Shown here piece by piece: positions 30,040 to 36,890 of a stretch of 64,000 nucleotides of DNA (positions within the stretch are counted from its first letter, which is position 1; the number at the start of each line of letters is the position of its first letter). The stretch is from Halobacterium sp. DL1 (GTDB lineage: Archaea; Halobacteriota; Halobacteria; Halobacteriales; Halobacteriaceae): contig CP007060.1 in assembly GCA_000230955.3 (NCBI GenBank), positions 1,550,001-1,614,000 of the forward strand, written 5' to 3'. A program made the translations under genes and the position numbers. Under the pieces are notes generated by a model that made no database searches, was not told the DNA's origin, and saw only the letters and a list, made by a program, of their open reading frames with translations.

Positions 30040-32139
30040 TCAGAACGACGACAGCGTCACGTCACGCGTCCCCCGTAGCTCACGTTCCACCCGCGAGCGG
30101 TCCCAGCCGAACGGCGAGAGCACGGTCGCTGCGGCCCGCACGAGGCAGTCGGCGTAGTGGTCGGTGTCGTAGTCCGCACAGTCCTCGAACGGGAGGCGGA
30201 CGCGCCGCCGGCCGTCCGCGTCGTCGTCCACGACGACGTACTCGACGCTCTGGCCGGGATGGCGCTCGACGCCGTGGGCCTCGTACCGCCGGAGCGCCGC
30301 GACCGTGCGCGTCTCCCGGTCGTACTCGCCGGCGGGCTTCGACGCACGGCGAGTCACCACGAGGTCCGCGGGAGCCACCTCGCCCGCCCGGAGCGTCGCG
30401 AGGTCCCGCGAGAGCGCGTCCACCACGACGCCCGGGCCGCCGCGGTCGAGGACGCGCAGCCACTCGCGCTGGCAGTCCGCGACGAACGACGGCGTCGAGC
30501 GGCGGCGCGCCTCCACGCCCCTGAGTTTGTGGTCGTCTTCCCCGGCGACCTTCCCGAAGTACGACGTGAGCGCGCCACCGCCGCCGTCGCGCCGGGGCAC
30601 GAAACAGACCCAGTCGTAGTGGCCGTCGCGCTCGAGGCGCACGTCCCGGTTCTCGGTGATGCGCTCGCAGACGTCGTCCAGTGGCTCCGGGTCGTCGGCG
30701 GGCGTCACCCAGACGCTGTCCACGATGGCGTGGGCGACGTGCCAGCCCGCGGCCTCCAGCGTCTCCTTCGCGCCGAGCAGGATGTCCCGCGCGTAGGCGT
30801 TGATGGCCTCGTGGCACTCGATGCGGCCGAACTTGCTGTTCCGGTAGCCCTGGTAGCCGAAACACGACACCAGCACCCACTTGATGGCCGCCGACTTCGC
30901 TTCGAGGCGCTCGGCCGCGTCCCCGGTCGCCGTCTCCAGCGCATCCTTGATGCCGCGGCGGTCGTCCAGCAGCGGACCGAGCACGTCCCCGAGGAAGCCG
31001 TCCTCGGGACAGAGGTTGTAGCCGAGTTCCGGCACCACCATCCGGTCGGGGTGACAGTCGCAGAGGACGGTGTCCGGGCTGACGTTGTACTCGCGGATGA
31101 TGTTCGGGTACAGCGACGCGAAATCCACCGCGTAGACGTCCTCGTGGCGGCCGACCTCCGGCGCGAGCGTCGTGCCGCCGCGGTCCGCGGCGTGGAGCGT
31201 GCGGGCGTCGGTGAACTGCTCGGGTTCCCACTTGTTCCACGGAACGAGCACGCCGCGGTCCAGTGCCTCCCGCGTCTGCATCGCGGTGAGGACGTTGCCG
31301 ATGCTCGCCCACCCGGCCTCCTCGATGGGTTTCCACGAGCGCTCGACGAGGTAGCGCAGGCCAGCGAGCCCGGACTGCCCCCAGAGGAAGCTGTTGGACT
31401 CGTCCAGCACGGCCCGCCCCGGCACCGTGTACCGGGCGGGCGAGTGGCCGGTGCGCCCGTAGCTCTCGTACGTGTTCGCGCCCGACAACTGGGTGACGCC
31501 GCCCGCCTCGCGGCCCCACTGCAGCGACACGCCCACCTCGCTCGCGCGGTCGGCGGCGAGTTCGAGGAGTGCGCCGTGACTCACCACCAGCACGTCCGGG
31601 TTCTCGCGGGTGAGTCGCGTCGCCAGCGTGCGCAGGACGGCGCCCTCGTCGCCCGCGACGCGCTCGCCGTCGACCCGGAGTTCGGTGAAGTCGCCGTCGG
31701 CGAGCGCGCGGTCGGTCGTCCGCACCGCGAGCGTACGCAACTCGCGGTCCGGCGTCGGGTCCGTTCCCGTCTCCACGCAGTACCGGAACCCCGGCGAGAA
31801 GTCGACGTTGTACAGCCGGAACGTGCCGGGGGCGCGGCCGCGCTCGTGGCGCTCGCGCACCTCCCGTGCGAGCGTCCGGACCTCTCGGACGCGCTCGACG
31901 TCCACCGCCAGCACCTCGGTCCGGTCGTCCGCGTGCAGGTCGAGGAAACGCTCGACCCACCGGAGGTCGGCGACCTTCGGGTCGTCGTCGAGCGCGTCCG
32001 CGAGCGACCCGAGCGCGCCGTCGCTGGCGTGGACGAACACGGTCGGCCGGTAGTCGGTGTCGCGTTCGGCGCGCCCCCCGTCCTCGGTGAGATGCCACGC
32101 CGTCACGCCGTTTTCGTCCACGTCGAAGGCGTACGCCAT
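30040..32139 (-). CDS. polB2: B-family DNA polymerase PolB2 (degenerate active site)
   Basis: 699 aa, shorter than replicative PolB. Motif A DFASLYPNII (339-348) and motif B (Lys420 to GYQGYRNSKFGR) are intact. Motif C, usually YGDTDS, is AIVDSV (471-476), so only one of its two Asp remains. The Exo I DxE motif is not found (LAVRTTDRA in its place), so proofreading is probably lost. Its ATG overlaps the stop of the small upstream gene (TGATG). Last gene of the three-gene cassette. PolB2 proteins have been linked to damage tolerance in other archaea; activity here is uncertain. Confidence 0.9.
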   Translation of the reverse strand: MAYAFDVDENGVTAWHLTEDGGRAERDTDYRPTVFVHASDGALGSLADALDDDPKVADLRWVERFLDLHADDRTEVLAVDVERVREVRTLAREVRERHERGRAPGTFRLYNVDFSPGFRYCVETGTDPTPDRELRTLAVRTTDRALADGDFTELRVDGERVAGDEGAVLRTLATRLTRENPDVLVVSHGALLELAADRASEVGVSLQWGREAGGVTQLSGANTYESYGRTGHSPARYTVPGRAVLDESNSFLWGQSGLAGLRYLVERSWKPIEEAGWASIGNVLTAMQTREALDRGVLVPWNKWEPEQFTDARTLHAADRGGTTLAPEVGRHEDVYAVDFASLYPNIIREYNVSPDTVLCDCHPDRMVVPELGYNLCPEDGFLGDVLGPLLDDRRGIKDALETATGDAAERLEAKSAAIKWVLVSCFGYQGYRNSKFGRIECHEAINAYARDILLGAKETLEAAGWHVAHAIVDSVWVTPADDPEPLDDVCERITENRDVRLERDGHYDWVCFVPRRDGGGGALTSYFGKVAGEDDHKLRGVEARRRSTPSFVADCQREWLRVLDRGGPGVVVDALSRDLATLRAGEVAPADLVVTRRASKPAGEYDRETRTVAALRRYEAHGVERHPGQSVEYVVVDDDADGRRRVRLPFEDCADYDTDHYADCLVRAAATVLSPFGWDRSRVERELRGTRDVTLSSF

Positions 32140-32381
32140 CAGTCGAGTCGCTCGCGGAGGTCCCGGAGCGCCGCCTCCTGGGCGACCAGCACCGAGAGGA
32201 TGGCGGCGCGCTCCGGGTCGACCGCGTTCAGGTGGCCGGCGGCGTGGGCGTGGTTCCGGGCGCGCTCGAAGACGCGGTCGAAGTCCTGCTTGCGCTCGCG
32301 GCGGAGCGCCCGCCGGAACGACTGGCAGCGCTGCTCGTAGGCGTCGAGGTGGTCGCGGTACGTCGCGTTCGTGCGGCCCAT
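32139..32381 (-). CDS. Small helical protein of the PolB2 cassette
   Basis: 80 aa, nearly all helix, with alternating charged and hydrophobic positions (YRDHLDAYEQRCQSFRRAL, RAAILSVLVAQEAALRDLRE), so a helical hairpin or coiled coil is likely. It overlaps both neighbours by one base of start/stop, which ties it to the RecA-like protein and to PolB2. It may bridge the two as an adaptor; that is inference from context. Unlike most haloarchaeal proteins it is quite basic. Confidence 0.85.
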   Translation of the reverse strand: MGRTNATYRDHLDAYEQRCQSFRRALRRERKQDFDRVFERARNHAHAAGHLNAVDPERAAILSVLVAQEAALRDLRERLD

Positions 32382-33010
32382 CAGACCACCACCTCCGGTT
32401 CCGGCGGCTCAATGCGCTCGGCCACCCGCCCCGCGACGTCGACCCAGTACGGGATGGTCGTCTGCCAGCCGTTCTGCGTCCAGTACGCCGTCGTCTCGAC
32501 GTCCTCGCCCTCGAAACGCGGGCCGAACCGCGTCTCCTCGACGGAGAGTTCGGCGTCGGCGTGCTCGGCGACTCTGTCGTCGTCCGTGGCGGTCACGAGC
32601 ACCGGCACGTCCCGCGCGTCGGCGAGCGCCGAGAGCGTGGACAGCGACGCCGTCCGGAGCCGCTCGGCCTCGCAGGCGAGCAGGTCGTCGTCGCGGTAGC
32701 AGTCGTCCACCGCGGGCGCGACGACGAGACTGGTCGGCCGCCGGGCGTCGGCCACCAGTTGCCGGACGAGCGCGTGGTGCTGGTGGGCGGTGAACGCCCG
32801 CGCCACCCGCACACGGTCGAGGACGCGGTGGGAGCGCGCGGCGTCGGCGAGCGCGTACGTCGAGGCGTGGTTCCGGGCGTCGACCCAGCGAGCGGGGCCG
32901 TCGCGGCGGTCCAGCACGGCGACGACGAGCGCCGCAATCTCGCCGCGGTCGCCGCCCCGGAGCAGTGTCACGCCCGAGTCGAGTGTCGGCAGTGGGTCTG
33001 CGCGTGGCAT
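32381..33010 (-). CDS. RecA-like protein without Walker A, PolB2 cassette
   Basis: 209 aa. The pattern of strands and helices resembles the RecA core: SGVTLLRGGDRGEIAALVV where the P-loop should be (18-27), a hydrophobic strand before D/E (SLVVAPAVDD, the Walker B place), and VPVLVTATDD. The P-loop lacks GKT, so ATP hydrolysis is unlikely. First gene of the cassette with a TATA-like box 25-33 nt upstream. By position and fold it parallels bacterial ImuA, the RecA-like partner of an error-prone polymerase. Confidence 0.78.
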   Translation of the reverse strand: MPRADPLPTLDSGVTLLRGGDRGEIAALVVAVLDRRDGPARWVDARNHASTYALADAARSHRVLDRVRVARAFTAHQHHALVRQLVADARRPTSLVVAPAVDDCYRDDDLLACEAERLRTASLSTLSALADARDVPVLVTATDDDRVAEHADAELSVEETRFGPRFEGEDVETTAYWTQNGWQTTIPYWVDVAGRVAERIEPPEPEVVV

Positions 33011-33034
33011 ACTCCAAGCGAGTGTCGACGCCCC

Positions 33035-33043
33035 GGATAACGG
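33035..33043 (-). promoter_or_regulatory. TATA-like box of the PolB2 cassette
   Basis: The minus strand reads CCGTTATCC 25-33 nt before the ATG at 33010. No LexA-like palindrome is obvious beside it. Confidence 0.5.
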
Positions 33044-33135
33044 ACGGCCATCCTCGGGGTGAAAGTGAAAGTAGACGCTATCTGGTTACAACGGTGCAGG
33101 TGACGAGGCTGGAGTCCGGGTCCGGGACTGAACCG

Positions 33136-33963
33136 TCACGTCGGGCCGAAGGACTCGCCCTCGCGCTCCTCGGCGCCCATCCGCCGGAGCGCCGCCCGCG
33201 CGTTACTCGCCTCGTAGCCGAAGAAGACGTCCTTCGCGTACTCGTCGGCCACCTCGGCGGCGTGGACGAGATTCTCCACGTCGACGTTAACGCCGTACAG
33301 TTCGACGCTGAACGGCGCGTCGAGGGCGTCCTGAAACCCAGAGGCGATGGTCTCCAGCCAGTACGTCGTCCCGTAGTGGGTGTCGTATAGCGGGACGACG
33401 AACTCGTCGACGTGCTCCGAGAGTGCCTCGAGGTCGAGGCCCGCGCGCTCGTAGAGGTGCCCCGGGTAGGGGTCGGGGTAGAGCGTGAGGTAGACCCGTC
33501 CGGGGATGCGGTCGGCCGCCTCGGCGACGAACTCCGTGATGACGCTCGCGCGCCAATCGTACCAGTCGTCGTGAGAAGACTCCTGGAAGGCGGTCACGCA
33601 GCGCTCGCAGCGACAGTAGTCGTCCCGGGGGAAGCCGACGTCGTCGAGGCGCACGTCCTCGTTGAGTTCCGCGCACGTCTCGACGACGGTGAGCACGCCG
33701 TTCCGGTAATCTTCGGCGAGCGGACAGATGTACGCCCAGTCGAAGTACGGCTGTTCGCGGGTGGCCCGGTTGCCCTCGCTGTCGACGGGGACGAGGTCGG
33801 GTTCGGTGCCCGCGGTGGCGTTGTCCCCGAAGCAGGAGACCATGTTGACCGCGTTCTCCACGGGGTCGGTGTGTCGGCCGGTGACGTCCTTGACCTCGTA
33901 GAACGCGCGGTCGAACTCCGGCCAGTCGAGTTCCTCGGCGTTCCGGGTGACGACGCCGTACAT
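33136..33963 (-). CDS. Putative TIM-barrel hydrolase-like protein
   Basis: 275 aa, no signal peptide. Features: MYGVVTRNAEELDWPEFD, VGFPRDDYCRCERC with three Cys close to an Asp, a strand VYLTLYPDPYPG, and FVVPLYDTHYGT. The DD-x-C-x-C-x-x-C block followed by a helix is reminiscent of putative glycoside hydrolase-like barrels in which a CxxC lies just after an acidic residue. I cannot assign a reaction. It stands alone, downstream of nothing obvious. Confidence 0.72.
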   Translation of the reverse strand: MYGVVTRNAEELDWPEFDRAFYEVKDVTGRHTDPVENAVNMVSCFGDNATAGTEPDLVPVDSEGNRATREQPYFDWAYICPLAEDYRNGVLTVVETCAELNEDVRLDDVGFPRDDYCRCERCVTAFQESSHDDWYDWRASVITEFVAEAADRIPGRVYLTLYPDPYPGHLYERAGLDLEALSEHVDEFVVPLYDTHYGTTYWLETIASGFQDALDAPFSVELYGVNVDVENLVHAAEVADEYAKDVFFGYEASNARAALRRMGAEEREGESFGPT

Positions 33964-36263: not shown

Positions 36264-36890
36264 ATGGCCAGGCGGCTCTCGACGGGCATCGACGTGCTCG
36301 ACCGGGAACTGGGTGGCGGGGTGCCAGCGGGGACGGTGGTCGCGTACGAGGCGCCTCCCGCGAGCCAGGGGGAGCTACTGCTGTACGAACTCACCAAGCC
36401 GCGCCCGACGCTGTACCTCACCACCGACCGCACGGAACAGGCCGTCCGCGACGCCTTCGAGGCGACGAACGCGCCGACGGGGGACCCCCAGTTCGGCTAC
36501 ATCCCGGGCGCGGACTCCCTGGAGAACGCCCGACGCGCGTTCCGTAGCGTCCCCGAGGAGTCCACCGTCGTCATCGACCCTGCGGACGCGCTCGAGCGCG
36601 CCGACCGGGGCCGCTACGAGAACTTCCTCAACGAACTCGGCAACCACATGCGGAACGTCGGGGGCGTGGCCGTCCTCCACTGCCTCGACACCGACCACGA
36701 GGGACCGCTCCGCGGCACCACCGAGCATATGGTCGACGTCGTGTTCCAGTTGCAGGTCGAGGAGAACAGCGGCGAGGTCGAGACGACGCTCACCGTGCCG
36801 AAGTTCCGCGGCGGGAGCGCACTCGACGCCCCGATAAAACTGAACCTCCGCGAGCGCGTCCAGGTCGACACGAGCCGCGACATCGCGTAG
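36264..36890 (+). CDS. RecA/KaiC-like protein without Walker A
   Basis: 208 aa with the RadA/KaiC-like start STGIDVLDRELGGGVPAGTVV. At the P-loop place it reads APPASQGE (30-37), with no GKT, so it should not hydrolyse ATP in the usual way. The Walker B-like STVVIDPADALE and the C-terminal strands fit the RecA core. Related haloarchaeal proteins are listed as RAD55-like or transcription-linked. It lies just downstream of the MinD-like gene. Confidence 0.82.
   Translation: MARRLSTGIDVLDRELGGGVPAGTVVAYEAPPASQGELLLYELTKPRPTLYLTTDRTEQAVRDAFEATNAPTGDPQFGYIPGADSLENARRAFRSVPEESTVVIDPADALERADRGRYENFLNELGNHMRNVGGVAVLHCLDTDHEGPLRGTTEHMVDVVFQLQVEENSGEVETTLTVPKFRGGSALDAPIKLNLRERVQVDTSRDIA

Follow-up and report, generated by a model that had tools for sequence, protein, structure and literature searches.

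Genes and proteins of the PolB2 cassette

We analysed a 64,000-nucleotide stretch of the genome of Halobacterium sp. DL1 (contig CP007060.1, positions 1,550,001 to 1,614,000; referred to as the window, the positions of which are used throughout) which carries on its minus strand a trio of genes encoding iRadA (32381..33010), PPB2 (32139..32381) and PolB2 (30040..32139). iRadA (209 amino acids) is a RadA/Rad51-like core without Walker A motif or N-terminal domain, PPB2 (80 amino acids) is a small helical protein of the arCOG07300 type with MGRTN at its N-terminus, and PolB2 (699 amino acids) is a family B DNA polymerase with an altered motif C and an inactive exonuclease domain. Neighbouring genes share one base in the sequence TGATG at both junctions, which are formed by the iRadA stop and PPB2 start (32379..32383) and by the PPB2 stop and PolB2 start (32137..32141). 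A TATA-like box (TTATCC, 33035..33040) is located 24 nucleotides before the iRadA ATG, and the operon is likely to give a leaderless transcript, as judged from the promoter sequence. All features described below are on the minus strand unless stated otherwise. The trio is the published archaeal PolB2 mutasome iRadA-PPB2-PolB2 (PMC11791011; PMC4104785), so the cassette itself is not new. The new part is the promoter, in which a PolB2 mutasome lies behind the UV-B box of radA and top6B, a box that alternates with an Orc-linked operator.

iRadA contains no GxxxxGK[ST] motif and the equivalent stretch reads GVTLLRGGDRGEIAAL. Its match to Pfam Rad51 is weak (E-value 0.0013), while the profile match to RadA/RAD51 has an E-value of 2.8e-12, and the AlphaFold2 model (predicted local distance difference test score, pLDDT, 92.9) matches the Rad51/Dmc1 fold with a Z score of 18.2. 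A severely decayed P-loop of the radA-like partner was described previously (Makarova 2014; PMC4104785). G2 and R3 of PPB2 are present in 115/115 haloarchaeal copies and T4 in 109/115; the MGRT sequence is the PPB2 arm motif in Timinskas 2025 (PMC11791011).

PolB2 matches NCBIfam NF004418 (872 bits, cutoff 692) as well as Pfam PF00136, and residues 1-690 of its AlphaFold2 model (pLDDT 89.3) can be matched to polymerases of the KOD/9N type (Z score 28). Motif A, DFASLYPNII (31096..31125), keeps the catalytic Asp339, and in motif B, from K420 to Q430 (30850..30882), K420 and FGYQ are invariant. In motif C, HAIVDS (30715..30732), the first Asp is replaced by Ile and the second, Asp474, is kept. 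When PolB2 is aligned by profile to PolB of Pyrococcus abyssi, IVD stands in place of DTD, RTT in place of the Exo I sequence DIET and ADRGG in place of the YEGG loop of replicative PolB, and Exo II is lost.

For comparison with relatives, 292 Halobacteria genomes were considered, of which 191 have a PolB2 match at E-value 1e-20, and 128 PolB2 loci were fetched. The first position of motif C is Ile or Leu and the second is Asp in all 128 haloarchaeal proteins, and Asp339, Lys420, Asp474 and DRGG (residues 319-322, 31174..31185) are invariant in all of them. DRGG corresponds to the D(K/R) motif, for which a contact with the PPB2 arm has been proposed. Close to it lies FTDA (residues 309-312, 31204..31215), an FxxA-like candidate for iRadA binding that resembles the Rad51-type oligomerisation motif; position 309 is aromatic in nearly all copies, position 312 is Met, Val, Ala or Leu, and the monomer model has a short helix at 312-318. 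The C-terminal TLSSF (30043..30057) is PIP-box-like (LxxF), with Leu in 117/128 and Phe or Tyr in 121/128 copies, and this conserved LxxF/Y may be a PCNA-binding element.

Genes for both partners are located upstream of PolB2 and on the same strand within the fetched stretch in 116 of the 128 loci and 6-12 kb upstream in 6 more, giving 122/128; the arrangement can therefore not be attributed to chance. Neither iRadA nor PPB2 was found in the fetched stretch of six loci (L014, L062, L087, L091, L118 and L050), the last of which is at a contig end. In comparisons with two close relatives, all three genes have ratios of nonsynonymous to synonymous substitution (dN/dS) of 0.14-0.38. Taken together with the invariant residues, this indicates that the altered PolB2 active site is a fixed, selected state and not the result of decay.

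A first-pass annotation, made from the window sequence without database searches, had described the doubled TGATG overlap behind one TATA-like box, a RecA-like protein without the Walker A GKT, and a polymerase with motifs A and B kept, AIVDSV in place of YGDTDS and no Exo I. These descriptions agree with the sequence, in which HAIVDS is read and DIET has become RTT, and the RecA-like protein could be identified as RadA/RAD51-related by profile and fold. Structure prediction of the single chains, which it had proposed, was carried out for iRadA and PolB2 and gave high-confidence models for both, and the survey of co-occurrence that it had also proposed found the partners in most relatives, so that their absence, which it had named as refuting, was not observed.

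The UV-B box and its alternation with an Orc-linked operator

The cassette promoter contains an exact copy of the haloarchaeal UV-B motif TTTCACTTTCA (operator A) at 33060..33070, 49 nucleotides before the iRadA ATG and upstream of the TATA-like box. The start of the motif and this box are 30 bp apart. Read from 33072 to 33061, the sequence is ACTTTCACTTTC, which consists of two tandem ANTTTC hexamers. In Halobacterium NRC-1 this 11-mer precedes the UV-B-induced genes radA1, top6B, vng17 and vng280 (Boubriak 2008; PMC2556686). A pattern search of the 3.16-Mb genome found 7 exact copies, compared to 0.04-0.09 expected from Markov models estimated from the window, and among them are the copies at radA, top6B and the iRadA-PPB2-PolB2 operon. 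A reversed-pattern control was disregarded, since the reversed and the real motif overlap. The spacing between box and TATA-like element is similar at all seven sites. The genes behind the four further exact sites (L172, L173, L176 and L177) gave no clear identification; the one at L177 encodes a short cysteine-containing protein, and L176 is near a threonine dehydratase-like gene.

Of 30 radA1 promoters of Halobacteria, 28 carry the UV-B box when one mismatch is allowed. Among 115 cassettes, 10 have an exact box, 17 a box with at most one and 20 a box with at most two mismatches, compared to 0, 0.02 and 0.38 in shuffled sequences, and all these boxes are on the coding strand at -80..-45. The ANTTTC-ANTTTC extension is present at 7/7 sites of the own genome, in 15/20 operator A cassettes and in 21/30 radA1 promoters. 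In the literature searched, TTTCACTTTCA was not found in any relevant paper other than PMC2556686, and no link of the UV-B motif to mutagenic repair was found.

At about the same promoter position, most other cassettes carry a tandem CGGAA repeat (operator B, CGGAA-N3/4-CGGAA), in its wider form the direct repeat [CT]GGAA-N3..5-[CT]GGAA or a near variant. With operator classes assigned by simple pattern rules, operator B is present in 84 of 116 cassette promoters, compared to 4.2 expected and 6 on the antisense strand. Twelve promoters scored as having neither operator, but several of these, including L084 (GTGAAACGCGGAA), L105 and L099, contain sequences close to operator B that the regular expression does not capture, so that 84 is a low count. 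No promoter among the 116 cassettes (20 with A, 84 with B) has both operators. Along the PolB2 tree, the operator class switches 8 times, and 6 of these changes are forced by well-supported branches, giving a minimum of six switches.

An Orc1/Cdc6-family gene (TIGR02928 above cutoff; Pfam Cdc6_lid) is present in the fetched stretch of 52/84 operator B cassettes versus 0/20 operator A cassettes (Fisher 2e-7), and operator B occurs in the own promoters of 35 of 54 linked orc genes, compared to 1.4 expected. From these sequence patterns, the linked Orc1/Cdc6-family protein is likely to be the regulator of operator B in most relatives. No orc gene was found in the 25 kb searched around the window cassette (20001-45000). 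The linkage of orc and polB2 is already known (PMC4104785, PMC1906834, PMC11791011); neither the sharing of operator B nor the way it alternates with the UV-B box was found in the literature searched, and the text of Timinskas 2025 (PMC11791011) mentions neither promoters nor haloarchaea. In whole genomes, operator B matches other than those in cassette and orc promoters are mostly coding or unclear, so that a wider operator B regulon is not claimed.

The same genome has a second PolB2 cassette on another contig (L084; G000 contig C2, 1658-3790 and upstream), with a PolB2 that is 50% identical and a long iRadA. Besides a linked Orc1/Cdc6 gene, this cassette has a variant form of operator B (GTGAAACGCGGAAG), and one cell may therefore run two mutasomes under two controls.

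A probable damage-induced mutasome and alternative explanations

Our best reading is that the cassette belongs to the radA/top6B UV regulon in this strain and that it is controlled in most relatives by a dedicated regulator of the Orc1/Cdc6 type. We consider it probable that the cassette is a PolB2-type translesion-synthesis mutasome which is switched on by DNA damage. The box suggests that, after UV damage, a regulator would act at TTTCACTTTCA, shortly before the TATA box, and induce the operon together with radA and top6B. The three proteins would be produced from a single, tightly coupled operon. By analogy with published Sulfolobus work, PolB2, with Asp339 and Asp474 kept and no proofreading, would then extend primers past lesions. 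iRadA would be a filament-like RadA core without ATPase and, in analogy to the AlphaFold complexes of Timinskas 2025, would dock on PolB2 via the FxxA-like loop FTDA. The MGRT arm of a PPB2 trimer would bridge PolB2, iRadA and DNA, with an arm contact between MGRT and DRGG. In most relatives the same operon has operator B in place of the UV-B box, in common with the adjacent Orc1/Cdc6-family gene.

The polymerase step is modelled on Sulfolobus Dpo2, which has the same kind of motif C change and is active and mutagenic (PMC7390963), and which extends lesion-bypass primers without proofreading (PMC7390963; PMC8764526). The first-pass annotation was right to call PolB2 catalytically altered; in Sulfolobus, a PolB2 substituted in this way is active in translesion synthesis (PMC7390963; PMC8764526). 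Its statement that the haloarchaeal cassette has no demonstrated function remains valid: in Halobacterium NRC-1 polB2 is not essential (PMC1906834), its deletion in Haloferax is reported to be possible (PMC7776575), and no phenotype of a polB2 deletion in haloarchaea was found in the literature searched.

Loss of the first motif C Asp in 128/128 copies and loss of the exonuclease motifs could also mean that PolB2 is catalytically dead and that the three proteins form a complex with a structural or regulatory role in initiating replication or handling forks, with the linked Orc as a replication partner (the reading of Makarova 2014), which would fit the many cassettes with linked orc genes. However, none of the 128 copies has lost the Asp of motif A, the Lys of motif B or the second Asp of motif C, the full polymerase fold is kept, and Dpo2 is active and mutagenic despite the same kind of change (PMC7390963). 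The promoter element common to the linked orc gene and the operon suits a regulator, and the window cassette has no orc gene within the 25 kb searched. We consider this explanation quite improbable. Losses of the Walker A motif, the exonuclease motifs and one catalytic Asp would likewise be expected for a decaying remnant of a polymerase operon. This is hardly credible in view of the dN/dS values, the intact frames, the class-wide invariant residues and the high-confidence folds, and decay was rejected on the dN/dS values and invariant residues.

Another explanation concerns the box, which might be a general promoter feature or the site of a regulator unrelated to damage, with the cassette being constitutive or under another signal. 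In line with this, two of the seven box sites (L173 and L176) are near genes without an evident repair role. On the other hand, there are just seven exact copies in 3.16 Mb, two of which belong to radA and top6B, the position and strand of the box in promoters are fixed, and UV-B induction of motif-bearing genes has been published for Halobacterium (PMC2556686). We therefore regard a role unrelated to damage as unlikely and prefer induction of the mutasome by DNA damage.

Several points weigh against this preferred reading. No regulator of the haloarchaeal UV-B motif was identified in the literature searched, and polB2 is not among the induced genes listed by Boubriak 2008 (PMC2556686). In NRC-1, however, polB2 is carried on pNRC200 together with a linked orc gene (PMC1906834), a cassette type that has operator B in the present survey, and that study is therefore no test of the window cassette. 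A tree-aware comparison of operator and linked orc gave 0 pairs with the same and 4-5 with the opposite association (p about 0.06), with few independent pairs and on a FastTree phylogeny with long branches. Finally, ANTTTC has just five fixed bases and its likeness to the Sulfolobus element may be due to chance.

That element is bound by Sulfolobus Orc1-2, and strains with altered Orc1-2 supply did not induce Dpo2 (PMC9738581). There are thus hints, by analogy, that an Orc1/Cdc6-type regulator might act on operator A too, which we treat as a hypothesis because the ANTTTC motif is short. More speculatively, and on balance doubtfully, haloarchaea could have an SOS-like response via Orc1/Cdc6-type regulators, in which the tandem ANTTTC unites radA, top6B and some mutasomes, and other mutasomes have a self-regulating Orc1/Cdc6 with the CGGAA operator. 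If true, an Orc-based damage response would be common to distant archaeal phyla and mutasomes would have been moved repeatedly between global and private control.

An operator for a haloarchaeal DNA-damage regulon has been proposed since 2008. The shared box suggests how salt-loving archaea turn on mutagenic repair after damage, and with a mutasome behind the box of radA and top6B, mutagenesis induced by damage in archaea can be tested in haloarchaea that are amenable to genetics. From the way the UV-B box alternates with the Orc-linked operator, Orc1/Cdc6 proteins emerge as candidate damage regulators beyond Sulfolobus.

Related systems, variant cassettes and neighbouring genes

The closest known system is the archaeal PolB2 mutasome represented by the Dpo2 operon of Sulfolobus islandicus, which shares the three genes, the MGRT arm, a candidate D(K/R) loop, the lost motif C Asp, the dead exonuclease and the P-loop-less RadA core. 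The window cassette differs in having the UV-B box of radA/top6B, no adjacent Orc1/Cdc6 gene and a conserved C-terminal LxxF in PolB2. With the NRC-1 UV-B motif regulon (PMC2556686) it shares the identical 11-bp motif, which precedes the TATA box and is about 50 nucleotides away from the start codon, and radA and top6B have this motif here too. The PolB2 operon is, however, not among the reported members, and it is by its promoter box that the window cassette is a candidate member of that regulon. The Sulfolobales Orc1-2 damage response (PMC9738581) includes Dpo2 induction and the DDRE ANTTTC, which resembles the haloarchaeal tandem ANTTTC, and many haloarchaeal cassettes are orc-linked. In contrast, no orc is linked to the window cassette, those linked to the cassettes of relatives occur together with the CGGAA repeat, and the likeness is one of sequence.

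The first-pass annotation had compared the cassette to the bacterial ImuA/ImuB/DnaE2 mutasome, built from unrelated parts, and had stated that PolB2 neighbourhoods were noted in comparative work, which is the case (Makarova 2014, PMC4104785; Timinskas 2025, PMC11791011). Its view of a mutasome-like cassette is well supported by the partners at 122/128 loci, but the closest analogue in print is Pol V. Escherichia coli Pol V (UmuC-UmuD'2-RecA) likewise combines an error-prone polymerase, a small multimeric adaptor and a RecA-fold partner, but has a family Y polymerase, an unrelated adaptor and an active RecA. ImuA/ImuB/DnaE2 has in common an altered polymerase-like subunit and a RecA-fold protein in a damage-inducible unit; membership was rejected because DnaE2 is a family C and ImuB a family Y protein, while the cassette has a family B polymerase and PPB2 as third gene. 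The parts are not wholly unrelated, as iRadA is a RadA/Rad51 core of the RecA superfamily.

Among the variant cassettes, long-type iRadA proteins (L057, L061, L065, L069 and similar) end near a conserved DPLLDAW-like stretch, which is a possible clamp-binding motif. In long-iRadA cassettes, a gene for a DEDD-type RNase H-like exonuclease with intact DIETTG was found between PPB2 and PolB2 in 14 matches (loci L063, L065, L068, L070, L080, L089, L090, L093, L102, L103, L105, L111 and L119). This stand-alone exonuclease could possibly provide proofreading in trans for a PolB2 without its own exonuclease. A gene for a SOS response associated peptidase (SRAP) is located near the cassette in matches from 15 loci, for example in L096, L064 and L086, which are of the long-iRadA type.

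Directly upstream of the cassette promoter in the window, a 275-amino-acid protein without Pfam or NCBIfam match is encoded at 33136-33963. A RecA-superfamily KaiC/ArlH-like protein with weak family matches is encoded on the plus strand at 36264-36890, 3.2 kb from the cassette.

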